A stretch of 64,000 bases of DNA from Thermocrispum agreste DSM 44070 (GTDB lineage: Bacteria > Actinomycetota > Actinomycetes > Mycobacteriales > Pseudonocardiaceae): contig NZ_ATYX01000006.1 in the NCBI RefSeq assembly GCF_000427905.1, forward strand, positions 1 through 64,000, in the 5' to 3' direction. Below are positions 3,137 through 18,733 of the stretch, one piece after another. Numbering within the stretch: the first letter of the stretch is position 1; every line of letters begins with the position of its first letter. The notes under the pieces are model-generated. The model ran no database searches and was not told the DNA's origin. It saw only the letters and a program-made list of their open reading frames with translations. The position numbers and the translations under genes were made by a program.

Positions 3137-4183
3137 TTGTCGAAGACCCGAGTGTCGCTAGTAGGTCTGGGTGCGACAGGCGTTGCCATAGGGAACGTGC
3201 TCGCGCGGCGGACGGACGTCAGTCTCCAGGGTGGCGCGGACCCCCGGCCTGGTCTGGTGGGGAAAGACCTTGGCTCCGTGCTTGGCGGCCAGGAGCTCGG
3301 TGTGACCGTGGTAGACAGCTCCGCCTGCTTGCCGGATGCCGATGTTGCGGTAGTTGCGACAAGCTCGATGCTCGACGTCGTCGCCGAGACGGTCGCGCCG
3401 CTATTGGAGCGGGGCATCAACGTGGTGAGTATCTGCGAGGAGCTGGCCTACCCGCATGTCAGTCATCCTCGGCTGGCTCGCCAGCTCGACGAACTGGCGC
3501 GGCAAAATGGCGTCACGTTGCTCGGCACCGGGGCCAACCCCGGGATCATCATGGATACATTGCCGTTATTGCTGAGCTCGATGACCCAACAGGCTCACCG
3601 AGTCGTGATCCGTCGCAGCGCAGACATGTCCAGGTACGGGGCTATCCTCGAAAAGTTTGGGCTAGGGCTGACCCCCGAGCAGTTTGGACTCGCGCAGCGT
3701 CGCGGCGCGGTCATCGGACACGTCGGCTTCGAGCAGTCCGTGGCAGCGCTGGGATCTGGGCTGGGATGGCGTCTCGATGAGATCGAGGTCGACGATGTTC
3801 GACCTGTGCGCATCACCGACCGAGCCCGGCACGGTCGGCATCGATCGCTCGAGGCGGGCACGGTCTCCGCGGTCCGGCACGCCGCCCGCGGGCTCATAGC
3901 CGACCGCGTGGTCATCGACCTTGAGATCAACTTCGGCTTCTTCGAGCCCGGCGACGATATCGCTCCGGGCGATCGCTGCCGCATTGAAGGCGTCGACCAG
4001 AACATCGAGGTCGTCGCGACCGCCGGCTACGAAAGCCACCTCAGCACGGTTGCGGTCACTGCCAATGTTGTCACTGCCGTTGCCGAAGCCCCACCGGGGC
4101 TCCGCAGCATGGCGGAGCTCCCGGTGGTCAGCTTCGCCTCCAGAGGCGCGTGGACCAACGTAGATCAACGAGGCCAGCCATGA
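3137..4183 (+). CDS. 2,4-diaminopentanoate dehydrogenase-like NAD(P)-dependent oxidoreductase
   Basis: This 348-residue protein has an N-terminal Rossmann motif GLGATG (10-15), as in dihydrodipicolinate-reductase-fold enzymes. A TGANPGIIMD segment near 130-140 resembles the TGxNPG motif of the Ord/2,4-diaminopentanoate dehydrogenase family, which oxidatively deaminates a 2,4-diamino acid. TTG 3137 is chosen as start because GAGGAG (3125-3130) stands six bases upstream and the Rossmann fold begins directly after it. It overlaps the next gene by ATGA and opens the cluster. A second, divergent paralog lies at 12259. The true substrate is not shown by sequence; an amino-acid or diamine substrate is inferred. 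Confidence 0.75.
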   Translation: MSKTRVSLVGLGATGVAIGNVLARRTDVSLQGGADPRPGLVGKDLGSVLGGQELGVTVVDSSACLPDADVAVVATSSMLDVVAETVAPLLERGINVVSICEELAYPHVSHPRLARQLDELARQNGVTLLGTGANPGIIMDTLPLLLSSMTQQAHRVVIRRSADMSRYGAILEKFGLGLTPEQFGLAQRRGAVIGHVGFEQSVAALGSGLGWRLDEIEVDDVRPVRITDRARHGRHRSLEAGTVSAVRHAARGLIADRVVIDLEINFGFFEPGDDIAPGDRCRIEGVDQNIEVVATAGYESHLSTVAVTANVVTAVAEAPPGLRSMAELPVVSFASRGAWTNVDQRGQP

Positions 4184-5739
4184 TGCACAATTCTGAGCCG
4201 CTCACGCCAACCGCATTTCTGACCCGCTCCGCGGCCGTGTACCCGGAGCGCACCGCCATCGTGGATGATGACCGGCAGTTCAGTTACGCCGAACTGCTTG
4301 ACCGGACACAGCGGCTGGCCGGTGCGTTACAGGCGCTTGGCCTGGGCCCAGGCGATCGAGTGGCAGTGCTGGCGCCGAACCGGCATCAGATGCTCGAAGC
4401 CCACTACGGTGTCCCATTCGCAAGCGGCGTGCTCGTGACATTGAACGTCCGGCTTAGTGCCGCCGAGATCGCCTACATCCTCGACCATTCCGGGGCTCGA
4501 TTCCTGATCTTCAGCCCGGATCTGAAAACCCTTGCCGAGGCTGCCCTGAGTCAAGCCTCGGTAAAGCCTGTGACCTTGATGTGCGGCCCGGAATATGAGG
4601 AAGCGCTCCGATCAGCCAAGCCGTACCAAGCAAACGTCGCCGACGAGCATGCAGCCCTGGCGATTAACTACACCAGCGGAACGACCGGGCGCCCGAAAGG
4701 CGTCGTGTACACGCATCGCGGGGCATACTTGCAGTCCCTGGCGATGGCTTATCACAGCCGGATGACGGGTCAATCCGTCTATTTGTGGACTTTGCCTATG
4801 TTCCACTGCAACGGCTGGTGTTTCACCTGGGCGGTGACGGCCGCCGGCGCGCGGCACGTGTGCCTGCCCCGAGCCGAGGAATCAGCTATTTGGGCCGCCA
4901 TCGAACAGCAGGGCGTGACGCATTTGTGCGCGGCTCCGACCGTATTGTCGAGCATCGTCTTCTCCGAGCGCGCCCAGGCCGTCCCAGTGTGGATCGGGAC
5001 GGGCGGCGCGCCGCCCTCGCCGTCGTTGCTCGGTCGCGCGCGTGAGTTGCGTTTCGACGTGACCCACCTATACGGCATGACCGAGACGTATGGCCCCATC
5101 GTCATCAACGACTGGCATCCGGAGTGGGATTCGTTGCCCGAGCAGGTGCGGAACAAGCTCAACGCGAGGCAGGGTGTGGGCAACATCGTGGCCCAGCAGG
5201 TCCGGGTAGTTGACCAAGACGGCACAGAGATCACCCCCGATGGCACCACACTCGGAGAGATCGCCGTTCGCGGCAACAATGTCATGGCTGGCTACTTTCG
5301 CGACGAAGTAGCAACCGCGGCAGCGATACCGGACGGCTGGCTCCGTACTGGTGACCTCGCCGTTCGCTATCCCGACGGCTACATCGAGATACGCGACCGA
5401 GCCAAGGACCTCATCATCTCCGGCGGTGAGAACATCTCGTCGGTCGAAGTGGAGCAGGCCCTTGCAGAGCATCCAGCTGTTCTGGAAGCAGCGGTCGTCC
5501 CGATGCCGCACCCCCGATGGGGTGAACGTCCCGCCGCGGTCGTCACGCTGAGACCGGGCATGCGGGCTGCCGAAGACGAGTTGCGGGCACATTTGGCCGC
5601 CCGGCTGGCCGGATTCAAGATTCCGGACCTATTCCGCTTTGCGGATCTTCCCAAGACAGCCACCGGAAAAATTAAAAAATTCCTTCTGAAAGAGCAGTTC
5701 GCACGATTCCCAAATGATCTCCCTGGCGGGAACGCCTAG
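4180..5739 (+). CDS. Acyl-CoA synthetase (AMP-forming)
   Basis: A 519-residue ANL-superfamily enzyme that should activate a carboxylic acid through an acyl-adenylate to its CoA thioester. The phosphate-binding loop YTSGTTGRPKG is at about 164-174, LYGMTE at 297-302, GWLRTGD near 386, DRAKDLIISGGENI near 406 and the C-terminal adenylation lysine in ATGKIKK near 495. The closest general type is medium-chain/aryl acyl-CoA synthetase (PMFHCNGW is typical). It is translationally coupled to the upstream dehydrogenase (four-base overlap), suggesting that the acid arises from the amine-oxidation product. Confidence 0.9.
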   Translation: MMHNSEPLTPTAFLTRSAAVYPERTAIVDDDRQFSYAELLDRTQRLAGALQALGLGPGDRVAVLAPNRHQMLEAHYGVPFASGVLVTLNVRLSAAEIAYILDHSGARFLIFSPDLKTLAEAALSQASVKPVTLMCGPEYEEALRSAKPYQANVADEHAALAINYTSGTTGRPKGVVYTHRGAYLQSLAMAYHSRMTGQSVYLWTLPMFHCNGWCFTWAVTAAGARHVCLPRAEESAIWAAIEQQGVTHLCAAPTVLSSIVFSERAQAVPVWIGTGGAPPSPSLLGRARELRFDVTHLYGMTETYGPIVINDWHPEWDSLPEQVRNKLNARQGVGNIVAQQVRVVDQDGTEITPDGTTLGEIAVRGNNVMAGYFRDEVATAAAIPDGWLRTGDLAVRYPDGYIEIRDRAKDLIISGGENISSVEVEQALAEHPAVLEAAVVPMPHPRWGERPAAVVTLRPGMRAAEDELRAHLAARLAGFKIPDLFRFADLPKTATGKIKKFLLKEQFARFPNDLPGGNA

Positions 5740-5745
5740 AAATAC

Positions 5746-5781
5746 CGCGATATCGCGCTGGCGATAGGTGATCGGATCACC
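5746..5781. promoter_or_regulatory. Two inverted repeats before the aldehyde dehydrogenase gene
   Basis: CGCGATATCGCG (5746-5757) is a perfect 12-bp palindrome. GGTGATCGGATCACC (5767-5781) is a perfect inverted repeat of seven-base arms around one G. Both sit in the 101-bp gap upstream of ATG 5841. They could be operators for the PucR or GntR protein encoded at the end of the cluster; this is inference. Confidence 0.4.
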
Positions 5782-5840
5782 AACCCTCCGCGCAACCAAG
5801 TAACGGTCGAGTCATCCCGAAACTGACCGCAGGAGAAAAT

Positions 5841-7274
5841 ATGTCGAGCACGCTTGAGTTCAAAACAAAGAACCTCGTCAATGGCTTGCTAATAGACGCC
5901 GCCGATGGTAGGAAGCTCGATGTCGTCGAGCCCGCCACCGAAAAAGTTCTAGCGCAAGTTCCGGCCAGCGGCCCGGATGATGTCGAAGCTGCCGTCCAGG
6001 CCGCCCAGGAAGCATTTCGCGTATGGCGCCGAACCACTCCAGGCGAGCGTGCAGAAATGCTGCTGGCGCTTGCCGATGCGATCGATGCCCACGCGGAGCA
6101 CTTGGCCATTCTGGAATCGCGCAATGTTGGCAAGCCACTACCGGTAGCGCGTGAGGAGATTCCTTTCGTCGCGGACAATATACGTTTCTTCGCCGGCGCG
6201 GCCAGGTGCTTGGAAGGCCGCTCGGGTGGTGAGTACCTGGCCGGCTACGAGTCGTACATCCGTCGTGAGCCAATCGGCGTGGTAGCCGGAATCGCTCCGT
6301 GGAACTACCCATTGCTGATGGCCGCGTGGAAGTTCGCCCCAGCGCTCGCGGCGGGCAACTGCAGCGTGCTCAAGCCAGCCCGATCTACCCCGCTTACCGC
6401 GCTGTACTTGGCGCACCTCGCCGCGGACATCTTCCCTCCCGGAGTGTTCAATGTGCTCGCTGGCAGCGCGTCCGACATGGGCGACAGTCTGGTGTCCGAC
6501 CCGCGAATCGGAATGATCTCCATCACTGGAGACACCGCGACGGGAATGAACATCGCGCGAGTCGCGGCGCAGAACGTGACCAAGGTTCACCTTGAACTGG
6601 GCGGCAAGGCCCCTGTCGTGGTGCTCGACGATGCCGACGTCGAAGCAGTGGTCGAGGCCGTGAAGGTCGCGGGATACGTCAACTCGGGTCAGGACTGCAC
6701 CGCTGCTTGTCGCATCATCGCCACACCGGGCATCTACGACCAGCTGGTCGAGGCCCTGGTGCCGGCTGTTCAGGGGCTCACTGTGGGTGATCCTGCCGAA
6801 ACCGAAGAGCTTGACCTTGGCCCAGTCATCTCGGCCGGACACAGGGACGCCATCCTCAATTTCCTGGACGAAACCGATGGCGAGGTGGTCACCGGCGGCA
6901 GATCCCAGCGGGCCACCGGTTACTTCGTTGAACCGGCCGTAGTGGTTAATCCCAGCCAAGATGATCGCCTGGTCCAAAAAGAGGTGTTCGGCCCGGTCGT
7001 CTCCGTCCAGCGGGCGAACGATGCGGACCAGGCATTCGAGTGGGCGAACGATGTCGAGTTCGGATTGGCGTCGTCGGTCTGGACTCGGGATCTCTCGTCC
7101 GCGCACCGGGCCATTCGAGAACTTGAATTCGGCTGCGTGTGGGTCAACGACCACTTGCCGGTAGTCGCGGAGATGCCGCACGGCGGCTTCAAGAAGTCGG
7201 GCTACGGCAAGGACATGTCGATGTACGGCCTAGAGGACTACACCCGCATCAAACACGTCATGACCAAGGCCTGA
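5841..7274 (+). CDS. NAD-dependent aldehyde dehydrogenase, aminobutyraldehyde/betaine-aldehyde type
   Basis: The 477-residue protein matches ALDH length. It shows PWNYP (about 153), ELGGKAP with the general-base Glu (about 252) and the nucleophile Cys in GQDCTAACR (about 283). The GQDCTA context and the ending are typical of gamma-aminobutyraldehyde dehydrogenases (PatD/YdcW group) and betaine-aldehyde dehydrogenases, so an amino- or ammonio-aldehyde is the likely substrate, oxidised to its acid with NAD+. GGAGAAAAT precedes ATG 5841. In this cluster it would supply the acid for the CoA ligase encoded just upstream. Confidence 0.85.
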   Translation: MSSTLEFKTKNLVNGLLIDAADGRKLDVVEPATEKVLAQVPASGPDDVEAAVQAAQEAFRVWRRTTPGERAEMLLALADAIDAHAEHLAILESRNVGKPLPVAREEIPFVADNIRFFAGAARCLEGRSGGEYLAGYESYIRREPIGVVAGIAPWNYPLLMAAWKFAPALAAGNCSVLKPARSTPLTALYLAHLAADIFPPGVFNVLAGSASDMGDSLVSDPRIGMISITGDTATGMNIARVAAQNVTKVHLELGGKAPVVVLDDADVEAVVEAVKVAGYVNSGQDCTAACRIIATPGIYDQLVEALVPAVQGLTVGDPAETEELDLGPVISAGHRDAILNFLDETDGEVVTGGRSQRATGYFVEPAVVVNPSQDDRLVQKEVFGPVVSVQRANDADQAFEWANDVEFGLASSVWTRDLSSAHRAIRELEFGCVWVNDHLPVVAEMPHGGFKKSGYGKDMSMYGLEDYTRIKHVMTKA

Positions 7275-7307
7275 TCACTTACCAGCCCAGACTTCGGAGG
7301 TGCGTCA

Positions 7308-8588
7308 ATGACAACAGCGGATCACACGGAACGGAAAAACACCGTAGACCTGGCGATGCCTAAGCCGCTCGACGAAGTCGAGCAAGCATTTGTAGACAAG
7401 TGGCACGAAAACGCGTACGGATGCTTCTCGTCGGGACACAAGTTCTGTCGGGAAGTTTGCCCAGTCACCCAGGTCACGCGTAACGAGAACCACACCCCGA
7501 CGGCCTTCCACGCGAATGTTGTCGCAATGGAGAAGGGCCACCTCAATATCGAGGACGTGGCCGACGATTACGTCCACTGCACCCAGTGCGGGGCTTGTGA
7601 GCTTCGGTGCCCCAATACATTGATGGTGGGCGACTTTTATCGCGCTCGCACCGAGACCGTGAAGGTGGTGCGCGCGGCGCGGGCGATGCTGGTGGACAAG
7701 GGGTTGGACCGTGAGAAGTGGAAGCAATGGAATCGGCTCACTGATGAACTAAAGAACGAGCCGGTGCTCGGCGTCGACGACGGCAGCCAGCCGAACGGGC
7801 AAGCTTACGTCCGCAACTGGGCGGAGGGACTAGACATCCCGATCGGTGGCGAGACCATCATGTTTGTCGACTGCGAGGCAGCCTTCTATCGGACGTCGCT
7901 ACCACGCGCCATCGCGCAGATTCTGCAGAAGGCCGGTTACGAGTTCGGCTTGATGAACGAGCAGTGGTGCTGTGGCGGCCCAGCGGCGGAAATGGGCTAT
8001 GTGGAGCAGTCGATGCGATTCGCCAGGCACAATATCGACGACTGGCGTGCGTCCGGCGTAAAGCGCATCATCGCGATCGAGCCGCATGACTACGTGCACT
8101 TCACCGAGGACTATCCCGCCTACTTCGGAGACGAGTTCGACTTCGAGGTGATCCAGATCGTCGATCTCGTCGCCGAGCTGATCCGGCAGGGCAGGCTCAA
8201 GCTCACCGTTCCCATCGACCGGGTGGTTACTTACCACGACCCCTGTCGCCTGAACAAGCGCAAGGGAATTCATGAGGCGCCCCGAGAGATCCTGCGAGCG
8301 ATTCCCGGTTTGACCTTCAAGGACGTTGACCGGGTCACCCAGTGGGCGTACTGCTCCGGTGGCGGCGGCGGACTGCCGATCGAGAAGCCGGAAATCACTG
8401 CCGAGATCAGTCGCCGCAGGTTGGAGAAGGCAGCAGAACTGGAGGTGGACACGCTGGTGAGTGCGTGCGTGTGGTCCGAGCGGCCGCTGAGCGCAGCTGG
8501 TGAAGAGGCCGGGATCGAGGTCAAGGACCTGATGGAGATGGTTGCCGAGTCCGCGGGGATTGAGATTGGCGGGAGGACCAGGGCATGA
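7308..8588 (+). CDS. 4Fe-4S / CCG-domain iron-sulfur protein (heterodisulfide-reductase-B-like)
   Basis: A 426-residue protein with two ferredoxin-type cysteine groups, one at about 39-51 (CFSSGHKFCREVC) and one near 91 (CTQCGACELRC). Two CCG domains follow, with CCGGP near 221, YHDPCR near 309 and CSGGGGG near 349. Such proteins (GlcF, GlpC, LutA, HdrD relatives) pass electrons from a partner flavoprotein to the quinone pool or another carrier. Its gene overlaps the FAD oxidase gene by ATGA, so the two almost certainly form a complex. GGAGG precedes ATG 7308. Confidence 0.9.
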   Translation: MTTADHTERKNTVDLAMPKPLDEVEQAFVDKWHENAYGCFSSGHKFCREVCPVTQVTRNENHTPTAFHANVVAMEKGHLNIEDVADDYVHCTQCGACELRCPNTLMVGDFYRARTETVKVVRAARAMLVDKGLDREKWKQWNRLTDELKNEPVLGVDDGSQPNGQAYVRNWAEGLDIPIGGETIMFVDCEAAFYRTSLPRAIAQILQKAGYEFGLMNEQWCCGGPAAEMGYVEQSMRFARHNIDDWRASGVKRIIAIEPHDYVHFTEDYPAYFGDEFDFEVIQIVDLVAELIRQGRLKLTVPIDRVVTYHDPCRLNKRKGIHEAPREILRAIPGLTFKDVDRVTQWAYCSGGGGGLPIEKPEITAEISRRRLEKAAELEVDTLVSACVWSERPLSAAGEEAGIEVKDLMEMVAESAGIEIGGRTRA

Positions 8589-10093
8589 CGACCGCCACGG
8601 TGGACAGCCACGTGGTTGACCGGCTGCGGGGAATTGTCGGCGAGGATGGGGTGTTGACCGACAAGGCCAGCTTGTTCAACAGAGCCCGGGTGCCCGCGCC
8701 GTTCCCGGTGCACCGCTGGGACGAGTACCTGCCGGACGTTGTCGTGCTGCCGCGGACGGCCCAGCAGGTTTCGGCCGTCGTCAAGCTCGCCAACGAGTAC
8801 CGGATCCCGGTAGTGCCGCGCGCTGGCGGCACAGGGCTTGCCGACGGCGCAGTGCCGCTGCGTGGCGGGATCTTGGTTGACCTGAAACGCATGGACCAGA
8901 TTCATGAGATCGACCTAGTGAATAACACCGTCACCGTTGGTCCAGGCATCAATCTTGAGACGTTGAATCGGTCGCTGAAGCAGCATGGAGTGATGTATCC
9001 GGACGATCCGGCCTCGTACGCCGTCGCGCTGGTCGGCGGCCGGATCGGCACAAGTGGATTGTCATTGCTGGGAGCGCGCTACGGACATCCGCGCGACCTG
9101 GTCATTTCCTTCGAGATCGTGTTGCCCACCGGCGAGATCATTCAGGTTGGCGACGGTGGCGGCCGGAAGGTGCGCAAGTCGTCGACCGGGTATCACCTCA
9201 AGCAGCTGTTCATGGGGCACCAGGGAACGCTCGGAATCGTCACGGAGGCGACGCTCGAGCTGGTGCCAAGGGCCGAGGCCGAGTTCGCCGCGTTTTTCCT
9301 GTTCGACGATTTCGACAAGGCCTATCGCACTTTCGCCAAGATCGGAAAGAGCGGAATCGCCACGCTGGGCGGAGTGATGCTTTTCGATCCAGAGAAGGTC
9401 GATTACCTGCGGCGTGACGACGAGGCGTACATCGTCCAGCCAAAGTGGGTGAAGTCCGTCTGCGCCGCGGCGCTGTATGGCACCCGGCCGGAGGTCGAAG
9501 CGGCGTCGAAGATGTTGATGGAGCTTGGCCGAAGCTTGGGCGGCCGCTATATCGGCGACGAGATCGCCCCGTGGGACTGGGCGGCTCGGCATGACCGTTA
9601 TGCGAACCCGCTTCACGGACGTGACGCCAATGGGCAAGTGCTGCCAATGAGCTGGCACTGTGAGGATGCCGCCGTGCCGTACAGCGAGGTGCCGGCAGTG
9701 CTGCGCAAATGGCATGAAATCACCGCCCGGTACATGGAGAAATACGAGCTGTTCGATGACTGGGGGTGCTTCGCGTACAGCAATGGCGCGCACAAGCCGT
9801 GGGGTGACCTTCTGCTGGAGATCGACCTGGGCTTGTGGGAAGAGAAACTGGACGAGGAAGGCTGGCAAGCCTTCGTGTCGCTCAAGCGTGAGATCGCCCA
9901 AACGGTGCTCGACCACGGTGGTTCGATCACCGCATGCCACGGTTCTACAAGGACTGGGGACGCGGAACTGGTTCCGATTGAGATGGGCGCGTCGTGGGAG
10001 GTCATGAAATTGCTCAAGCGCACGCTCGACCCGAACAACATCATGAACCCCGGGAAGCAATGCCTGGACGAGGCGTACCAGGGCGGAGTGTGA
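8585..10093 (+). CDS. FAD-linked oxidase (VAO/PCMH family, GlcD-like)
   Basis: A 502-residue flavoprotein. The FAD-binding PP-loop region PRAGGTGLADGA lies near 77-88, a second FAD-domain segment (GTSGLSLLGARYGH) near 155-170 and the family-typical LDPNNIMNPGK at about 481. Relatives oxidise 2-hydroxy acids, D-lactate or glycolate and donate electrons to a CCG/Fe-S partner, encoded directly upstream with a four-base overlap. The substrate is unknown. In this context oxidation of a hydroxy or amino intermediate of the pathway is inferred. Confidence 0.88.
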   Translation: MTTATVDSHVVDRLRGIVGEDGVLTDKASLFNRARVPAPFPVHRWDEYLPDVVVLPRTAQQVSAVVKLANEYRIPVVPRAGGTGLADGAVPLRGGILVDLKRMDQIHEIDLVNNTVTVGPGINLETLNRSLKQHGVMYPDDPASYAVALVGGRIGTSGLSLLGARYGHPRDLVISFEIVLPTGEIIQVGDGGGRKVRKSSTGYHLKQLFMGHQGTLGIVTEATLELVPRAEAEFAAFFLFDDFDKAYRTFAKIGKSGIATLGGVMLFDPEKVDYLRRDDEAYIVQPKWVKSVCAAALYGTRPEVEAASKMLMELGRSLGGRYIGDEIAPWDWAARHDRYANPLHGRDANGQVLPMSWHCEDAAVPYSEVPAVLRKWHEITARYMEKYELFDDWGCFAYSNGAHKPWGDLLLEIDLGLWEEKLDEEGWQAFVSLKREIAQTVLDHGGSITACHGSTRTGDAELVPIEMGASWEVMKLLKRTLDPNNIMNPGKQCLDEAYQGGV

Positions 10094-10096
10094 GAA

Positions 10097-10387
10097 ATGA
10101 GCGACGAACCTTACCGCTTCGGACGCTATCGGCAGGATGAGCAACAACCGCCAGAGCCGCGACAGGTCACCGATCAGGTCGTCATGCGGTTCGACGACAT
10201 TTACGAGGTCGATCCACGGCGGATGACGCGGTTTCGCCAACAGAAAATGCCAGCTTGGGACTCGCATCGGATCGCGGCTGCCCGTATGGACCATTTGAGA
10301 TACGTGCAGCGGGCGTTCGCGGACGAGACCCTAACCGCCGATTGCGCGGCAGACCCCATTCCAGCCGACGAGCCAGACAAAAGTTAA
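10097..10387 (+). CDS. Small protein of unknown function, coupled to the FAD oxidase
   Basis: A 96-residue, charged protein (many Arg, Asp, Gln) without membrane segment, cysteine cluster or known motif. It begins four bases after the FAD oxidase stop, which points to co-translation and perhaps to a third subunit or assembly factor of the Fe-S/FAD complex. The C-terminus is acidic and proline-rich. I do not recognise a family. Confidence 0.65.
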   Translation: MSDEPYRFGRYRQDEQQPPEPRQVTDQVVMRFDDIYEVDPRRMTRFRQQKMPAWDSHRIAAARMDHLRYVQRAFADETLTADCAADPIPADEPDKS

Positions 10388-10437
10388 CCAACGTCCAAGG
10401 CGCGTTTAGGCAAATGATCTGTCAGAAGGACTTAGCT

Positions 10438-10485
10438 GGCACAGGGTGCCTGGCTCCCATTCACGAACGAGCCGCGCCCTGTGCC
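10438..10485 (+). terminator. Large hairpin after the oxidase operon
   Basis: GGCACAGGG (10438-10446) pairs perfectly with CCCTGTGCC (10477-10485), and GGCTC (10452-10456) pairs with GAGCC (10469-10473) inside it. There is no T-run, so it may be a factor-assisted terminator, an RNA-stability element or a leader structure for the permease gene 160 bp downstream. The remaining intergenic sequence to 10649 shows nothing else I can name. Confidence 0.45.
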
Positions 10486-10649
10486 CGCCGAGACGATCGT
10501 GCGCCAGCCGGGCGCAGTCAATCCCGCTGCGCGAGGCCGGCCGAATTTCCCCAGAGAAAACGGATCGGTTTGGGTCGCAATAAATGCACGGCGAGGCCGC
10601 GTAAATTTATCGCGCTGCCCGGTTAGACCCGTGCGGATCGGGAGTCGCG

Positions 10650-12176
10650 GTGAGCAACCCATCAGATGTGCGAAAGCCGGACGAAGATGCGCGACAGCTT
10701 GCGTCGCTGGGCTACGTTTCCGAATTTAAACGCGACATGTCGCTTTGGGAGAACTTCTCCCTGGGATTCACCTATCTGTCGCCTGTAGTCGGCGTGTACT
10801 CCCTGTTCGCGTTCGCTCTTGCGACGGGCGGTCCGCCAATGATTTGGGCGGTTGTCCTCGCGGCGATCGGCCAACTGTTTGTAGCACTGGTGTTCGGTGA
10901 AGTCGTTTCTCAGTTCCCGGTGTCCGGTGGGGTTTACCCATGGGCGCGTCGATTATGGGGAAGGCGGTGGGCCTGGCTCACCGGCTGGGTCTACATGCTG
11001 GCATTGGTGGTCACGATCGCCAGCGTGTCCTACGGAGCCGGGCCGTTCGTGGCGATGTTCCTGGACATCACGCCGTCCACCGATGTGACGATCGTGTGCG
11101 CGATCGTGTTGATTCTCATCGTCATGATGCTCAACCTCGCTGGCACAAGGATCCTCGCGAAGGTCGCCTTCTTCGGCTTTGCCGCCGAATTGGCGGGCGC
11201 GGTCGCCGTCGGCGGGTGGTTGCTGCTCACCGAACGGCGCCACGGCCTCGGTGTCCTATTCGACTCGGCGGGAGTCGAGGGTTCTAACTCATACCTGCCG
11301 GCATTTCTCGCTGCGGCCCTAATCGGCGTTTATCTCTACTACGGCTTTGAGGCGTGTGGCGACGTCGCGGAAGAGGTGAGGAACCCTGGAAAGCGCATTC
11401 CTAGGTCCATGCGCATGACGATCTATATCGGCGGCGCGGCCTCATTCGTCATTACTTTCGCACTGCTGTTGGCTGTGCCGGACTTCGGCGCGGTGATCAC
11501 CGGCGCCGACCCAGACCCGGTCACGACGGTGCTGCGCGGCGCGTTCGGCCCGGTGGGCTTCAAGGTAGTGCTCGGGATTGTGTTGATTTCGTTCCTGTCG
11601 TGCGCCCTGAGCTTGCAAGCTGCGGCCAGCCGGCTTATCTATTCGTACGCGCGCGACGATATGATGCCGGTCAGTCACGCATTCAAGAAGATATCCGCAA
11701 AAAGGCATGTGCCGCCGTATGCCTTGCTTTTGACGGCCATCCTCCCGATATGTATCGTGATCGCATCGAAGATTTCTGAGAACGCGCTGACGAAGATCGT
11801 GTCCTTCGCCTCCCTAGGGATTTATCTGGCCTTCATGATGGTGGTCATGGCCGCATTGCGGGCGCGGCTGAAGGGGTGGCGTCCGAGCGGGAAGTTCACG
11901 CTAGGTCGGTGGGGGTTGCCGGTCACGTTGACCGCATTGGGTTACCAGTTGCTGGCGGCGACGAATATGGCGTGGCCGCGAACGCCAGACGCGCCGTGGT
12001 ACGACAACTACAACGTTTTGCTTTCCGCTGCTTTGGTAGTGGCGGCAGGGCTTGTCTACATGCTGATCGCCAAGCCATACGCGCGGACTGACCTGCCGCA
12101 TGGTGACGCGATTGCCGAACCAGTCAAACCGGAATCGGACTTCGCCGAAGCCGCAGGCAGAAAGGGGGGCCTCTGA
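10650..12176 (+). CDS. APC-superfamily amino acid permease
   Basis: The 508-residue protein has about 12 hydrophobic segments. The first APC signature is FSLGFTYLSPVVGVYSLF (about 32-49), followed by the PVSGGVYPWARR loop and a cytoplasmic EVRNPGKRIPRSM motif near 245, all typical of amino-acid/polyamine/GABA permeases. It should import the substrate of the surrounding cluster by cation symport or exchange. GTG 10650 is preceded by a weak GGGAG. A hydrophilic tail of about 35 residues ends the protein. Confidence 0.88.
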   Translation: MSNPSDVRKPDEDARQLASLGYVSEFKRDMSLWENFSLGFTYLSPVVGVYSLFAFALATGGPPMIWAVVLAAIGQLFVALVFGEVVSQFPVSGGVYPWARRLWGRRWAWLTGWVYMLALVVTIASVSYGAGPFVAMFLDITPSTDVTIVCAIVLILIVMMLNLAGTRILAKVAFFGFAAELAGAVAVGGWLLLTERRHGLGVLFDSAGVEGSNSYLPAFLAAALIGVYLYYGFEACGDVAEEVRNPGKRIPRSMRMTIYIGGAASFVITFALLLAVPDFGAVITGADPDPVTTVLRGAFGPVGFKVVLGIVLISFLSCALSLQAAASRLIYSYARDDMMPVSHAFKKISAKRHVPPYALLLTAILPICIVIASKISENALTKIVSFASLGIYLAFMMVVMAALRARLKGWRPSGKFTLGRWGLPVTLTALGYQLLAATNMAWPRTPDAPWYDNYNVLLSAALVVAAGLVYMLIAKPYARTDLPHGDAIAEPVKPESDFAEAAGRKGGL

Positions 12177-12258
12177 CTGCTGATCACAGGGAGAAGGCTA
12201 GGTAGTCGATTTGTGTCGTATGACTTTTCGTCATAGACCCAAAGAAAGGTGGACCTCA

Positions 12259-13290
12259 ATGAGGAAGATTAAGGCCGTCGTTTATGGCGTTGGCGCTATG
12301 AACACGATCGCTACTCGGATGTTGCTAGATAAGGGTGTCGAGATCGTGGGAGCGCTCTCCCGCAGCGAGGCGAAAGTGGGCAAGGACCTCGGAGCCGTCA
12401 CGGGGCTCGGCGAGCTGGGCGTCACGATCAGCAACGACCCCGCGGAGGTGTTCAAGCGGACGACGCCCGACGTCGCGGTTATCGCCGTCAACAGCTACAT
12501 GGCTGACGCAGTGGAACAACTTCGGGCTTGCGCCGAGCACGGCGTCAACGCGGTCACGCTGAGCGAAGAGGCGCTGTACCCGTGGAAGACTTCGCCGGAG
12601 ATCACCGAAGAGCTGGACGCCATCGCCAAGCGCACCGGGGCCACGCTTACCGGTACCGGACACCAAGACGTCTACTGGGTCAACATCGTCACCATGATGA
12701 TGGGAACGGCGCACAAGATCGACTCGGTGACGGGCCGGGCCAGCTGGAATGTCGATGACTTCGGCCCTGAGGTCGCCGGGGACCAGCAGGTGGGAAGTTC
12801 GGTGACGGAGTTCGATAAGTGGTTGAAAAGCGCCAGCCGGCCGCCGACATTCGGGCGCAACGTGCTGGACGCGTTGGTCGCGCACACCGGCCTGACACCG
12901 ACGAAGATCACTACTACGACGCGGCCCGATCTGGCTCCCAGCCGGATGTACTCCAAAGCACTCCAGGCGGAGGTTGAGGAGGGCGCAGTCATCGGCTTCA
13001 CCGATGTCGACGAGATCCGCACCGAAGAGGGTCCGGTGTTCACCTTCGAGATGTCCGGCCGGGTCTACATGCCCGAGGAGGGAGACATCAACCAGTGGGA
13101 CATCGCCGGAGAGCCCGAGCTGACCCTGTCGAACGGCACTGTGCCAACCCAGATCACCACCTGCACGCAGCTGGTGAACCGCATCCCGGACGTGATCAAA
13201 GCCGAGCCAGGCTTCGTCACCGTGGAGAAGCTTCCCGCGCTGCGCTATCGTGCCTTCCCGTTGCACGAGTATGTCTGGGGTACTCGTTGA
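12259..13290 (+). CDS. 2,4-diaminopentanoate dehydrogenase-like oxidoreductase, second paralog
   Basis: This 343-residue Rossmann protein (YGVGAM at 8-13) belongs to the same family as the gene at 3137. Its LTGTGHQDVYWV segment replaces TGANPG, suggesting a different substrate. Full-length relatives deaminate 2,4-diamino acids or act on related amines with NAD(P). ATG 12259 follows an AAAGGTGG ribosome site; longer readings upstream are not supported. It is placed between the permease and the PucR regulator, so the cluster has one such enzyme at each end. Confidence 0.75.
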   Translation: MRKIKAVVYGVGAMNTIATRMLLDKGVEIVGALSRSEAKVGKDLGAVTGLGELGVTISNDPAEVFKRTTPDVAVIAVNSYMADAVEQLRACAEHGVNAVTLSEEALYPWKTSPEITEELDAIAKRTGATLTGTGHQDVYWVNIVTMMMGTAHKIDSVTGRASWNVDDFGPEVAGDQQVGSSVTEFDKWLKSASRPPTFGRNVLDALVAHTGLTPTKITTTTRPDLAPSRMYSKALQAEVEEGAVIGFTDVDEIRTEEGPVFTFEMSGRVYMPEEGDINQWDIAGEPELTLSNGTVPTQITTCTQLVNRIPDVIKAEPGFVTVEKLPALRYRAFPLHEYVWGTR

Positions 13291-13340
13291 GTGATCCGGT
13301 TCGCGACTGAGCCACGAGTTGCAGGAGGCCGAGAAAACGC

Positions 13341-14957
13341 ATGCTGACATTGGGCGACCTCCTCGACCACAAGGAGTTCAAGCTCGAACTGCTGACGGGG
13401 AACAAGCGGGCGCGCGAGCGGCCGATCCTCGGGGCGCACAACTCCGAGATGGCTCATCCGACCGAGTTCATCCCTCCGGATTGGGTGGTGCTCACGCTGG
13501 GCATCTGGCTGCGCGATCAGCCCGAGGATGCCCAGCGTGAGCTGGTCCGGGAGCTCAACGCAGACGGCATCTGTGCCCTCGGCTTCGGCGTCGACGTAGC
13601 GTTCTCGCAGCCCCCGGCGGCCTTGCTGGACGAGGCCCGACTCCTTGAGTTCCCGGTTTTCCGGGTGCCCTACGAGACGCCTTACCGCGAAATCGTCGGA
13701 TTCGTCAATAAGACGTTGATCGATACGGATTTTTCGTCCATTCAGCGCGCCTTTTCGATGCAGAACTATCTGCTGGATGCGTTCAAGGCCCACTGGCCGC
13801 TGCAAGATTTGGCGCAGCGGCTGAGCCGCCTGTTGCACGGCGAGGTGTATCTGTTCGACGCGTCCGGCCGTATGCGGCTGGGCGAGTCCGACGAGCGCGG
13901 CGCGCAAGTCTGGCTGCGAATAATACGACAGCGGGTCGGCACGTCCGCGGTGGCCGCGGACGACTTGCTCGCGATGCCGCTGATGGATGACGTCGGCCGC
14001 GAACAGGGTTGGCTGGCCGTGCTGGGCGGCAGCCGCTCGGCTTCGAATGAGCTCGTCCATGCCGTGATGCGTTTTGCCGGGAGGCTGTTGGACTTCGTGG
14101 ACCTGCAACGCGACGCCGCGCGGGTCGAGGATCAGTTGGTGCGCGAGGAAGTACTCAAGGCTGCCCTTGAGCCGTTGACCACGTACGACGAGCGGGAACT
14201 GGCCGGGCGGTTCCGGCGTTTCGGCATCGACTTCACCAAACCGGCCAGGGCCGCGATTTTCCACGTCGGCGATAGAGCGGGTGCGGTTGCGCCGGAGCGC
14301 AGGCAGATGCTGGAGGACACGCTCGCGGCGCGCGGCATCCCGTTCCTCGCTATGGCCGAGCCGCGCGATCTCACCGTGGTTATGCAGGCCGAGGTAGACG
14401 AACTGGCCGCTTGGGTTGACGAGCTCGCCGAGCGCTTCGACCTGGTCGTCGGCGCTGGCCGAGAGATCACCCGGGTGAGGGACGTCGCCCAGTCGCTGCA
14501 CGGCGCACGCACCGCCATGCGCCATTTAGACGGTCGGCTGCGCCTGGTGGACAAGCTCGGCTTGGCTCTGTGGCTGGTGCACTCCGTGGCGGAGACGGAC
14601 CTGGTGGTCAAAATAGATCAGGTGCTCGGCCCGTTGCTGGACCGACCGGAGTTCATTCACACGCTGAAGGTGTATTTCGAGAATGATCTCAACGTGACAG
14701 CGGCTGCGGCTGAACTCTCTATCCACCCGAATACACTTCGCTATCGGCTCGGGCAGATCGAGGCGATCCTGCAACGCCCGCTGAGCAGCATGGCGACGCT
14801 AGTGGATGTCTATCTTGCGTGCTTGGCGTCCGAGAAAGGTGAGGACGAGTGCGGAGCCAACAACGAGATCATTCGCTCCACCCGCTGTGGGGATCCCGAA
14901 GCTCGGCGAGCGTGTGCGCCGGCCCGCCGGAAGACCGGAAATGTCACGTGTGGCTGA
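13341..14957 (+). CDS. PucR-family transcriptional regulator
   Basis: A 538-residue regulator. The N-terminal PucR (purine catabolism regulator-like) sensing domain covers about 1-125, a GGDEF-like/CdaR central region follows, and a C-terminal HTH_30 motif lies at about 448-475 (NVTAAAAELSIHPNTLRYRL). PucR proteins usually activate nitrogen-compound catabolism when the substrate is present. It follows the dehydrogenase by about 50 bp with AGGAGG 12 bases before ATG, and is the likely pathway-specific activator. The last 40 residues are low-complexity and not conserved in the family. Confidence 0.9.
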   Translation: MLTLGDLLDHKEFKLELLTGNKRARERPILGAHNSEMAHPTEFIPPDWVVLTLGIWLRDQPEDAQRELVRELNADGICALGFGVDVAFSQPPAALLDEARLLEFPVFRVPYETPYREIVGFVNKTLIDTDFSSIQRAFSMQNYLLDAFKAHWPLQDLAQRLSRLLHGEVYLFDASGRMRLGESDERGAQVWLRIIRQRVGTSAVAADDLLAMPLMDDVGREQGWLAVLGGSRSASNELVHAVMRFAGRLLDFVDLQRDAARVEDQLVREEVLKAALEPLTTYDERELAGRFRRFGIDFTKPARAAIFHVGDRAGAVAPERRQMLEDTLAARGIPFLAMAEPRDLTVVMQAEVDELAAWVDELAERFDLVVGAGREITRVRDVAQSLHGARTAMRHLDGRLRLVDKLGLALWLVHSVAETDLVVKIDQVLGPLLDRPEFIHTLKVYFENDLNVTAAAAELSIHPNTLRYRLGQIEAILQRPLSSMATLVDVYLACLASEKGEDECGANNEIIRSTRCGDPEARRACAPARRKTGNVTCG

Positions 14958-14969
14958 AACGGTCATTCC

Positions 14970-15716
14970 GTGATGGGTGAGCGCGCTGCCTTGATCGCCC
15001 CGTTGAACTCCGGCGGGCGGGCCGACGAACTCACGGCCCGGCTGACCGAGGCGATCCAGCTGGGCCTGGTCGCTAATGGGCACCGCTTGCCGCCAGAGCG
15101 CGAGTTCGCCGAGCAACTTGGGGTCTCGCCGATGACTCTGCGCGATGCCATCGCGGTCTTGCGCGATCGCGGCTTGGTCGAAACCAAGCGAGGGCGCAAC
15201 GGCGGCACGTTCGTGACTCGATCGATCGAACCTGACGAAACCCCAGACCGCGCGCGCCTTGCCGGGCTTCCTGTGTCGGCGTTGCGAGACATCTGCGATG
15301 AGCAGCGAGCGATCACGTCTTTGGCGGCTCGTCTTGCCGCTGAGCGAGCGTCCGATTCAAGTGTGACCAAATTGCTCGCGTTGGTCGATCGGATGGACTC
15401 CGCTGCGACTCGTGGGGCCTGCATGCGGGCCGACAGCAGGTTCCACATCGAGGTGGCCATCGCTACTCGATCCGAACGATTGACTCGCCGGGAAGTGTCG
15501 CTGCAGGCCGAAACCGTCGGGTTGCTTTGGCTATCCGAACTCGACGAGGCCGAAGCTGTGGCGATCGTGGAAGAGCACCGCGAGATAGCGGGCGCGATCG
15601 CTGAGCAGAACCCCACGCGGGCGCAGGCTGTGGCCGAGAACCACGTTCTGCAGAACCTACGTCGTCTGGCAGGGTTGCACTTGAAACTGGTGGAGGGGGA
15701 GGAGGACCGATCGTGA
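14970..15716 (+). CDS. GntR-family (FCD-type) transcriptional regulator
   Basis: A 248-residue protein with a winged-helix N-terminus (about 30-85: LPPEREFAEQLGVSPMTLRD, then GLVETKRGRNGGTFV) and an all-helical FCD ligand-binding domain. FCD members bind small carboxylates or amino acids and commonly repress catabolic genes. GTG 14970 is the first possible start; ATG 14973 is equally possible. It overlaps the next gene by GTGA, so regulator and Cache protein are made together. Confidence 0.87.
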   Translation: MMGERAALIAPLNSGGRADELTARLTEAIQLGLVANGHRLPPEREFAEQLGVSPMTLRDAIAVLRDRGLVETKRGRNGGTFVTRSIEPDETPDRARLAGLPVSALRDICDEQRAITSLAARLAAERASDSSVTKLLALVDRMDSAATRGACMRADSRFHIEVAIATRSERLTRREVSLQAETVGLLWLSELDEAEAVAIVEEHREIAGAIAEQNPTRAQAVAENHVLQNLRRLAGLHLKLVEGEEDRS

Positions 15717-16474
15717 TCGAACAGGGGCATACAGATCAGGCGGCCGCGCTGCCCGAGGTAGCCGCGCGGCTGTCGGCTGTGCTCAATGCGCAACTGGAGC
15801 CGATGAATGAGTTGGCCGGACGGCTCACAGAGATGTGGGCACGGCCGTCAGCGCGGCGTAATGGGTTCAGTGGCACTGAGGTGAGTTCGCTGGCGAGCCA
15901 GGTTGAATCGGCTATCCGCCAAGTCGACCGCATGGTGGGACACGGATTCATCGCCGCGCCGGGCGTCGTTGACGGGCACGAGCGATACATGCTGTGGTTG
16001 CAGCGAAAGAACGGAAAGATTTACCGTCTCCGGCTCAACATCGACCACAGTGACCCGGATTCCTACGAGTACGTAACTATGGAGTGGTACGTCCGAGCGG
16101 TAACGTATGGTGCGCAGGTGCTCACCGGTCCGTACCTCGATTACTCGGGGTCAAACCACTTCGTGCTCACTTTTAGTGCGCCGGTGCGATCGGACGGTAA
16201 ACTGCTAGGCGTCGTTGCCACCGATGTGCTCGTTCATAAGGCCGAAACCGAGTTCGTGAAGATTTTGCAGCGCCTCGACGAGGATGCAGTGTTGGCCAAC
16301 GCCGATCGCATAGTAGTCGCGGCTAACTCGGTGCGCTGGATACCCGGGGACCGGTTGCCGGCTCACCCTGCGGATGATCCCGCGAACTTTCACTCCGTCG
16401 TGCCGCTCAGCGACTGGACTGGGTGGTGGTTGGCCCTGGCTAGCGGGCAAGGCGATGCCCGAAAGCCGCGGTGA
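15713..16474 (+). CDS. Soluble Cache-domain sensor protein
   Basis: The 253-residue protein has a PDC/Cache fold signature (EWYVRA, TGPYLDYSG, LTFSAPV, GVVATDV at about 123-175) but no signal peptide, membrane helix, kinase, GGDEF or chemotaxis module. Cache domains normally sense small ligands outside the cell, whereas this one appears cytosolic. In amino-acid-binding dCache domains an Arg two positions before the Trp-Tyr pair binds the carboxylate. Here that position is Met, which could fit an amine or another ligand (inference). It is translationally coupled to the GntR gene and may gate that regulator. Confidence 0.7.
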   Translation: MIEQGHTDQAAALPEVAARLSAVLNAQLEPMNELAGRLTEMWARPSARRNGFSGTEVSSLASQVESAIRQVDRMVGHGFIAAPGVVDGHERYMLWLQRKNGKIYRLRLNIDHSDPDSYEYVTMEWYVRAVTYGAQVLTGPYLDYSGSNHFVLTFSAPVRSDGKLLGVVATDVLVHKAETEFVKILQRLDEDAVLANADRIVVAANSVRWIPGDRLPAHPADDPANFHSVVPLSDWTGWWLALASGQGDARKPR

Positions 16475-16505: not shown

Positions 16506-16522
16506 ATACCCCGTGGGGGTAT
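16506..16522. promoter_or_regulatory. CsoR-like copper operator
   Basis: ATACCCCGTGGGGGTAT is a perfect seven-base inverted repeat around GTG. It closely resembles CsoR boxes, in which ATACCCC/GGGGTAT arms are bound by apo-CsoR and released by Cu(I). It lies 36 bp before ATG 16558 of the copper ATPase, so copper-inducible expression is expected. No csoR gene is in the window. Confidence 0.75.
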
Positions 16523-16557
16523 CGTTGGGTTGCCTTCGAAGCACGGGAGCGGACGTC

Positions 16558-18612
16558 ATGGACCATCATCCGCACCACCATGTCGAGCCCGCGACGTCGG
16601 GGGAGCAGCACCACGACCACGGCGCCCACGGTGGACATGACGAGCATGCGGGACACTCGCCGGAGATGTTCCGGGATCGCTTCTGGTTGTCCCTGCTGCT
16701 GACGATCCCCCTGGTGATCTACGCCGACACCGTGCAGATGTGGTTCGGCTACCAGGCGCCTCAGTTCCCGGGATCTGAGCTCATCGCGCCGGTGTTGGGC
16801 ACGTTCATCTTCGTGTATGGCGGTGGGCCGTTCCTGGTCGGAGCGGTGCACGAGCTGCGCGCTCGCCAGCCCGGCATGATGCTGCTGATCGGCATGGCGA
16901 TCACCGTGGCGTTCGTGTCCAGCTTGGCCGCCAGTTTCGGCCTGTTCGACGTCGAAGTGTGGTGGGAGCTCTCCCTTCTGATCGTGATCATGTTGCTCGG
17001 GCACTGGATGGAGATGCGCGCCATCGGCCAGGCTCGCGGCGCGCTCGCGGCGCTCGTTGAGCTGCTGCCGGACGAAGCCGAGCGCATCGGCCACGACGGT
17101 CAGATGGAAACGGTGCGGATCGCCGATCTCGCGGTTGGCGACATCGTGCTGGTTCGGCCGGGTGGGCGGGTGCCCGCGGACGGCACGATCGTCGGAGGCG
17201 CGGCCGAGCTGGACGAATCCATGATCACCGGCGAATCGCGACCGGTGGCCCGCGGCGAGGGTGAGCGTGTCATCGCGGCAAGCGTGTCCACCGACAGTTC
17301 GATCCGGATTCGGGTCGATGCCGTCGGCGAAGACACAGCGCTCGCGGGCATCCAGCGCTTGGTCGCCGAGGCACAGGCGTCGCAGTCACGCACTCAGGTG
17401 CTTGCCGACCGTGCAGCGGCATTGCTGTTCTACGTCGCGCTCGCGGTGGCGGCAGTCACCGTCGTGGTGTGGGCATTGCTTGGCGATGGGGACGCGGCGG
17501 TCGTGCGTTCGGTGACAGTGCTCATCATCGCCTGCCCGCACGCTCTTGGCCTGGCCATCCCGCTGGTCATCTCGATCTCCACGTCGAAGTCCGCGCGCAA
17601 CGGCATTCTGGTCAAGGATCGGCTCGCGCTCGAGCGCACGCGTGAAGTCGACGTGGTCCTCTTCGACAAGACCGGCACCCTCACCAAGGGTGAGCATGTA
17701 GTCACCGACGTCGCGGCGGTGAAGAGCACCGAAGATGAGTTGCTGGCGCTGGCCGCCGGCGTCGAAGCGGAAAGCGAACACCCGCTGGCCCGCGCCATCG
17801 TCACCGCCGCTCGCGACCGGGGCGTCACGTCACGAGGCGTCGTCAACGCGCGCGCGATGACTGGGCGTGGCGTGCTTGGCATGGTAGACGGTCAGGCCGT
17901 CGCCGTCGGCGGTCCAAATCTGTTGCGTGAAAAGGGTTGGGATATCCCTCGTGAGCTCCATTCCCAGGTTGACGGGTGGAAGCGACGAGGGGCCGCCGTG
18001 CTGTATGTCGTTCGGGACGACGACGTGATCGGCGCACTGGCGCTGGAGGATCAGGTCAGGTCGGAGTCGGCGGGCGCGATCGATGCCCTTCATCGACTCG
18101 GGGTGAAGGTCGCGCTCATCACCGGTGACGCCCAGGAGGTCGCTGACACCGTTGCGGATGACCTCGGCATCGACGAAGTGTTTGCCGAGGTCCTGCCCGA
18201 AGACAAAGACAAGGCGGTCAGTGAGCTGCAGCGCCGAGGGCACACGGTGGCCATGGTGGGCGACGGCGTCAACGACGCCCCGGCGTTAGCTCGCGCCGAC
18301 GTGGGCATCGCCATCGGCGCGGGCACCGACGTCGCCATTGAATCCGCGGACATAGTGCTCGCGGCCAACGACCCGCGTGCGGTCGTGGCCGTTATGCGTC
18401 TGTCGGCGGCCAGCTACCGCAAGATGCTGCAGAACCTCTGGTGGGCCGCCGGCTACAACCTCGTCGCCATCCCCCTCGCGGCTGGCGTGCTGGCGTGGGC
18501 CGGGTTCGTGCTGCCAATGGCCGTTGGGGCTGTGCTCATGAGCCTGTCCACCATCATCGTCGCCCTCAACGCTCAGCTGTTGCGCCGCGTCAACCTTCGG
18601 CCGGCGTCGTGA
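16558..18612 (+). CDS. copB: CopB-type heavy-metal P1B ATPase
   Basis: A 684-residue P-type ATPase with a His-rich cytosolic N-terminus (residues 3-36) instead of CxxC metal-binding domains. It has the CPH intramembrane motif (about 325), phosphorylation site DKTGT (about 370), TGES actuator loop and GDGVNDAP (about 567). CPH plus a His-rich N-terminus defines the CopB group that exports copper or silver. ATG 16558 follows GGGAG; an upstream in-frame reading would overlap the operator and is rejected. The CsoR-like box upstream supports copper as the metal. Confidence 0.9.
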   Translation: MDHHPHHHVEPATSGEQHHDHGAHGGHDEHAGHSPEMFRDRFWLSLLLTIPLVIYADTVQMWFGYQAPQFPGSELIAPVLGTFIFVYGGGPFLVGAVHELRARQPGMMLLIGMAITVAFVSSLAASFGLFDVEVWWELSLLIVIMLLGHWMEMRAIGQARGALAALVELLPDEAERIGHDGQMETVRIADLAVGDIVLVRPGGRVPADGTIVGGAAELDESMITGESRPVARGEGERVIAASVSTDSSIRIRVDAVGEDTALAGIQRLVAEAQASQSRTQVLADRAAALLFYVALAVAAVTVVVWALLGDGDAAVVRSVTVLIIACPHALGLAIPLVISISTSKSARNGILVKDRLALERTREVDVVLFDKTGTLTKGEHVVTDVAAVKSTEDELLALAAGVEAESEHPLARAIVTAARDRGVTSRGVVNARAMTGRGVLGMVDGQAVAVGGPNLLREKGWDIPRELHSQVDGWKRRGAAVLYVVRDDDVIGALALEDQVRSESAGAIDALHRLGVKVALITGDAQEVADTVADDLGIDEVFAEVLPEDKDKAVSELQRRGHTVAMVGDGVNDAPALARADVGIAIGAGTDVAIESADIVLAANDPRAVVAVMRLSAASYRKMLQNLWWAAGYNLVAIPLAAGVLAWAGFVLPMAVGAVLMSLSTIIVALNAQLLRRVNLRPAS

Positions 18613-18733
18613 GCAACTATCCGGCATTCACATGTAGCCGAACAAGTGCTTGACAGCCAGCAGAGAGTTGGTCGTCTTAGCACCCTGTGGAACTTTCGGA
18701 CGTTCACACGAGTGGCGAGGATGGGCAGCAAAG

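Follow-up and report, generated by a model that had tools for sequence, protein, structure and literature searches.

What is degraded, or made, by a run of closely spaced genes near the start of a Thermocrispum agreste contig, two of which encode paralogous dehydrogenases related to 2,4-diaminopentanoate dehydrogenase (2,4-DAPDH), is the question raised by this locus. The window analysed (64,000 nt) is the first 64 kb of one contig of a 4.19-Mb genome, and the run at 3137–16474 is one conserved, catabolic-looking, apparently uncharacterised operon. All of its parts except one small protein come from known families; their combination is new.

Gene content and conservation of the operon

The run comprises eleven plus-strand genes (ORF list and codon-bias gene call) that overlap or are closely spaced: several neighbours overlap by 4 bases, and the largest intergenic gaps are 262 and 101 bases. 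A first-pass annotation had described a single operon-like run encoding an aldehyde dehydrogenase (ALDH), a CoA ligase, a CCG/Fe-S protein, a VAO-type FAD oxidase and a permease; overlaps and conserved order and strand bear out the former, and Pfam and NCBIfam profiles verified the family calls. Its start for the second dehydrogenase (ATG, 12259) is preferred over the mechanical ORF start at 12211. It overlooked an ORF of 96 aa (10097–10387). The PucR-family gene (13341–14957; PucR, HTH_30) is accessory, lying outside the conserved core. Two of its three regulators stand, PucR and the GntR/FCD protein (14970–15716; FCD, GntR), while the third (15713–16474, overlapping the GntR gene; PF22673, 50 bits) is a soluble cache-domain sensor without a DNA-binding domain. 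Upstream of the operon lie IS3- and IS110-like transposase ORFs, with family names taken from inspection of their translations. Neither a FadR-type operator nor a common palindrome was found upstream of the operons.

The order DAPDH1, CoA ligase, ALDH, CCG protein, FAD protein, small protein and AmDH2, all on the same strand, is kept in five genomes, namely the window and four relatives: Mycolicibacterium frederiksbergense (L003), Prauserella endophytica (L004), Nocardioides soli (L005) and a Mycobacterium-type genome (L065; G539), the first three represented by 21-kb loci from a genome scan with AmDH2 as query. The outcome that would have told against the first-pass reading, genes not conserved together, was thus looked for and is not what these genomes contain. 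The seven core genes are 53–89% identical to the window copies in the four relatives, with the 4Fe-4S/CCG protein at 85–89%. GntR (39–66% identical in relatives) and cache genes lie near the core in all four, from which the PucR gene is absent; the window alone has one. In these relatives an ammonium transporter gene (Amt; PF00909) directly follows AmDH2. No Amt is present in the window, where the gene of an APC amine/amino-acid permease (P0006, 10650–12176; AA_permease_2, 177 bits) lies between those of the small protein and AmDH2 instead. An APC permease is also found at L003, L065, L084, L133, L134, L136, L138 and L139.

The cache protein is conserved beside GntR, and the Arg of the amino-acid-type cache motif (PMC10104139) is missing in all seven cache orthologues, which is compatible with an amine ligand and not proof of one. 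The gene set is rare, with FAD orthologues (E ≤ 1e-90) in 3/395 genomes of the class and AmDH2-type proteins in 8/396 Mycobacterium genomes. Its patchy distribution across families, together with the IS elements, suggests horizontal transfer.

Two non-equivalent amine dehydrogenases

DAPDH1 (P0001, 3137–4183; PF19328, 111.8 bits) and AmDH2 (P0007, 12259–13290; 50.7 bits against a cut-off of 23.3) are the sole PF19328 (DAP_DH_C) proteins found genome-wide. AmDH2, which matches 6IAQ (MsmeAmDH) with 524.7 bits across 329 residues, is by sequence comparison the orthologue of this crystallised native amine dehydrogenase of Mycobacterium smegmatis. The catalytic Glu is present (AmDH4 position 102), Trp and Thr-Phe match 6IAQ, and Ser/Arg/Ser plus Lys stand at cofactor positions that are NADP-type under published rules (PMC11164908), so that its active site is of the group G3 (MsmeAmDH) type. 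Amine/ketone interconversion is the predicted activity of AmDH2.

DAPDH1 belongs to the AmDH4/2,4-DAPDH branch. Its nearest solved structures by sequence are 6g1h and 6g1m (AmDH4, group G2), its structure model is closest to 6g1m, and AmDH4 converts levulinate to 4-aminopentanoate (PMC9325545). DAPDH1 shares the AmDH4 fold and retains its catalytic Glu102, Arg161 and His197 in all six orthologues compared, but differs at positions 163, 168 (Tyr) and 264, where His of AmDH4 is replaced by Ile in all six; with Ile at 264 and Tyr at 168 the pocket differs from that of AmDH4. DAPDH1 also carries the NAD-type Asp33. Given these differences at active and cofactor sites, DAPDH1, a predicted gamma-amino acid dehydrogenase, is expected to act on a carboxylate-bearing amine and AmDH2 on a neutral amine. 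The description of the pair as two paralogous 2,4-DAPDH-like enzymes therefore holds for the family and not for equivalence: DAPDH1 is NAD-like and of the carboxylate type, AmDH2 is NADP-like and of the neutral-amine type. In a large-scale context analysis of the native amine dehydrogenase (AmDH) family (PMC11164908), no clear metabolic function emerged; the present operon is conserved and contains members of two groups.

Partner enzymes and related loci

The ALDH (P0003, 5841–7274), assigned to the gamma-aminobutyraldehyde type, passes the NF010000 cut-off (684 vs 615 bits) and falls below that of the narrower TIGR03374 (612 vs 909 bits); its nearest solved structures are 1wnb and 6c43. Downstream are the 4Fe-4S/CCG electron-transfer protein (P0004, 7308–8588; CCG, Fer4_8) and an FAD dehydrogenase of the GlcD/VAO superfamily (P0005, 8585–10093; FAD_binding_4, FAD-oxidase_C), whose best matches are GlcD- and GlcF-like proteins among families and D-lactate dehydrogenases among structures. 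P0005 lacks HxGDGNxH, the metal motif of hydroxy-acid dehydrogenases, and none of the four orthologues checked has it in the C-terminal region. One HVGDG match, in the FAD protein of L084, falls outside this region. The 96-aa ORF (10097–10387; codon-bias ORF call) starts three bases after the FAD gene and encodes a protein conserved at other loci (31–61% identity), with no significant Pfam match and a low-confidence AlphaFold model (pLDDT 56). Identity of the small protein with LvaB was considered and rejected, as the length differs and similarity is not visible.

The Fe-S/FAD/small-protein unit also occurs without AmDHs, together with APC permease, GntR, cache and LLM flavin protein genes (L084, L133, L134, L138, L139). 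It is adjoined by a 55–57% identical ALDH in L134, L138 and L139, and a GABA transaminase gene is nearby in L133, L138 and L139. The TIGR00700 cut-off is passed by the GABA transaminase copies of L063 and L139 (those tested), and those of L133 and L138 are 60–62% identical to the L063 copy. The position of this sub-cassette beside a GABA transaminase is the strongest hint at a diamine.

Orthologues or relatives of AmDH2 have several settings: in L063 the gene is divergent from gabT, with PuuD-like and acyl-CoA dehydrogenase family (ACAD) genes, and in L068 from a trimethylamine monooxygenase cluster; in L070 it is part of a GlnA/PuuD/ALDH/CoA-ligase/kinase/ACAD/IRED cluster; and in L045 it is flanked by an APC permease and xplB/xplA, on the Rhodococcus DN22 plasmid that carries xplA and xplB (PMC10820124). 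DAPDH1 orthologues occur in a GlnA/PuuD/ALDH/ADH/kinase/ACAD/SDR/IRED cluster in L075 and in ADH/ALDH/permease clusters with (L113, L115) or without (L116) a CoA ligase.

The CoA ligase gene (P0002, 4150–5739; AMP-binding, 292.8 bits) overlaps DAPDH1 in the window, and ligase and DAPDH1 genes are overlapped or coupled at several loci. The ligases that accompany DAPDH1 fall into a single clade (support 100/99) across two different cluster architectures; DAPDH1 and this ligase travel together. P0002 was rejected as LvaE, being 49–51% identical to LvaE and 49–58% to generic controls, with LvaE in a separate clade of the tree. LvaA/LvaC-like kinase and ACAD genes lie in or beside the clusters of L003, L065, L070 and L075, and ACAD11 is among the best-matching structures for the L003 ACAD. 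Such a kinase/ACAD pair brings 4-hydroxyacyl-CoA into beta-oxidation (PMC11342911). LvaA/C/D-like genes are unlinked in the window, Prauserella and Nocardioides; in the window genome the only kinase/ACAD homologues are distant (34–35%) and lie on another contig, and LvaC-like genes are present in unrelated Rhodococcus clusters too. The linked kinase/ACAD genes and the C4 chemistry of DAPDH-type enzymes suggest a 4-oxo acid as intermediate. The likeness to LvaABCDE is in the logic of converting a 4-oxo acid to a CoA ester, with LvaA/LvaC-like neighbours in four relatives; the differences are a ligase outside the LvaE clade, the unlinked LvaA/C/D-like genes in the window and the lack of any LvaB found.

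A candidate amine-catabolic pathway and its alternatives

We give about an even chance to an oxidative amine-catabolism operon leading from a diamine through an aminoaldehyde, a gamma-amino acid and a gamma-keto acid to a CoA ester. Its observed basis is which genes are present and conserved, the families and active-site types to which they were assigned, and the linkage of the sub-cassette to GABA transaminase and, in relatives, of the clusters to kinase/ACAD genes; we infer the substrate, the order and direction of the steps, and every activity. The APC permease would import a small (di)amine. A primary amine would next be oxidised to an amino-aldehyde or ketone, by the FAD protein acting together with the Fe-S and small proteins, by AmDH2, or by both. 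The gamma-aminobutyraldehyde-type ALDH would then yield a gamma-amino acid, which DAPDH1 with NAD would convert to a gamma-keto acid and ammonia, and the translationally coupled CoA ligase would activate this keto acid for beta-oxidation. Where linked, the 4-hydroxyacyl-CoA kinase/ACAD proteins may handle the CoA ester, and GntR and the cache sensor probably control the operon. The first-pass annotation had left the choice between a diamine and an amino acid; a diamine is the better guess than an alpha-amino acid, given the ALDH score above a curated cut-off and the sub-cassette's GABA transaminase neighbour in relatives. The best-fitting substrate is, tentatively, gamma-methyl putrescine (1,4-diaminopentane type), in which case the keto acid would be levulinate. 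Also in favour of the pathway are the levulinate activity of AmDH4, whose Glu102, Arg161 and His197 DAPDH1 retains, the single ligase clade that goes with DAPDH1, the neighbouring LvaA/LvaC-like genes of four relatives and the Amt gene behind AmDH2 in four genomes; the ligase outside the LvaE clade, the unlinked LvaA/C/D-like genes in the window, Prauserella and Nocardioides, the LvaC-like genes of unrelated Rhodococcus clusters and the altered pocket of DAPDH1 speak against it.

Among known systems, putrescine degradation of the PatA-PatD-GabT type is similar in its aminobutyraldehyde-family ALDH and amine permease, and in the location of the sub-cassette by gabT in relatives. It differs in its transaminases: the window has none for GABA or putrescine, and the cluster has NAD(P) dehydrogenases, a CoA ligase and the FAD/Fe-S/small-protein set in their stead. 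An ordinary putrescine/polyamine operon, with dehydrogenases replacing transaminases, would run from AmDH2 or the FAD complex to 4-aminobutyraldehyde, by the ALDH to GABA and by DAPDH1 to succinate semialdehyde, the CoA ligase serving something else. The ALDH type, the GABA transaminase adjoining the sub-cassette and AmDH2 divergent from gabT in L063 all agree with this reading, which is nevertheless doubtful, since the cluster contains no succinate semialdehyde dehydrogenase and, in known cases, the substrate of DAPDH-type enzymes is a secondary amine. The coupling of ligase and DAPDH1 at several loci also fits a keto acid that is closed to further oxidation. In the diamine-to-keto-acid pathway, DAPDH1 and the coupled CoA ligase would take the place of the transaminase. 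If the product is a keto acid and not a semialdehyde, this would account both for the coupling of DAPDH1 to a ligase instead of a succinate semialdehyde dehydrogenase and for the lack of the GABA transaminase found with the related cassette.

It is unlikely that the FAD/Fe-S pair is a glycolate/lactate-type hydroxy-acid dehydrogenase in a cluster degrading a hydroxylated amino acid or amino alcohol: the GlcD/GlcF-like and D-lactate dehydrogenase matches, and the acceptance of hydroxyketones by MsmeAmDH (PMC11164908), would agree, but the four orthologues have no HxGDGNxH in their C-terminal region and the neighbouring genes are amine-type. Still less probable is an operon that makes an amine, with the AmDHs as reductive aminases and Amt supplying ammonium. 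Amt lies directly 3′ of AmDH2 in four genomes and the amination reaction is what these enzymes are known for in vitro (PMC11164908), but the window has no Amt, and the ALDH, CoA ligase and permease, with the kinase/ACAD and GABA transaminase genes of relatives, look catabolic. An aerobic variant of ornithine catabolism via 2,4-diaminopentanoate is the least probable: DAPDH1 is nearest AmDH4/2,4-DAPDH in sequence and fold and is homologous to the dehydrogenase of ornithine fermentation, but literal 2,4-DAPDH function, as the first-pass names implied, is not supported: the scores are 251.6 (DAPDH1) and 173.2 bits (AmDH2) against the NF040740 equivalog cut-off of 400, pocket residues 163, 168 and 264 of DAPDH1 are different, and the cluster has no ornithine-fermentation genes (ornithine aminomutase, 2-amino-4-oxopentanoate thiolase).

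No characterised pathway with the same gene set, as the first-pass annotation had supposed, was found in the literature searched, nor anything relevant on 4-aminopentanoate or diaminopentane catabolism. It is possible, on a slightly more tentative footing than the choice of substrate, that with this operon a catabolic role in nature can be recognised for the first time in a pathway based on native AmDHs. Two AmDHs unlike in their cofactors and in the type of substrate would convert a gamma-substituted diamine via 4-aminopentanoate to levulinate, aided by a new amine dehydrogenase of three parts (FAD, Fe-S and small protein) that feeds the respiratory chain.

Native AmDHs are being actively developed for chiral amine synthesis. 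A conserved operon with two AmDHs, a permease, a sensor and downstream enzymes gives them a testable metabolic context and narrows the substrates to a few candidates. The locus further indicates an undescribed FAD/Fe-S/small-protein unit, and suggests that part of the gene set on the RDX-degradation plasmid shares its origin with amine catabolism.

Flanks and regulatory pair of the window operon

Transposases of the IS3 type (in two ORFs) and of the IS110 type (321-2696) occupy the contig start, directly upstream of the operon, possibly marking a route of acquisition or else an assembly break. The overlapping genes at 14970-16474, encoding a GntR/FCD regulator and a soluble cache-domain protein, are kept together as a pair; a cache domain serving as co-sensor in the cytosol is unusual. 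After the operon (16513-20281) come a heavy-metal P-type ATPase and a second, unrelated acyl-CoA synthetase, which is 36% to the operon CoA ligase P0002.

An AmDH2 orthologue beside xplAB

On plasmid p5 of the RDX-degrading Rhodococcus DN22 (NZ_CP133331.1, 25003-31266), an orthologue (64%) of the amine dehydrogenase-like AmDH2 lies directly 5′ of xplB and xplA, with a permease of the same type as that of the window operon (58%), and an ALDH fragment is found further along, past xplB/xplA. An amine-catabolism operon may be the setting into which xplAB was recruited on this plasmid.

Amine-related and imine-reductase-like neighbours

L068 (5125-9180) has an AmDH2 orthologue from which two other genes diverge: one for a trimethylamine monooxygenase, scoring above its curated cut-off, the other for a probable TMAO demethylase, a fusion of GcvT/DUF1989-like type. 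The flavin amine-oxidase-like protein between gabT and the Fe-S/FAD sub-cassette in L138 (3534-5231) has no NCBIfam match at E<=1e-40. Reductive-aminase/imine-reductase-like proteins exceeding the PF21761 cut-off are encoded within DAPDH/AmDH clusters in L070 (7475-8383) and L075 (14666-15562), and a 27% relative in L121 (13992-14900) adjoins a levulinate catabolism (lva) operon accompanied by two aminotransferases of class III. These clusters and the lva neighbourhood are possibly a natural context for imine reductases.
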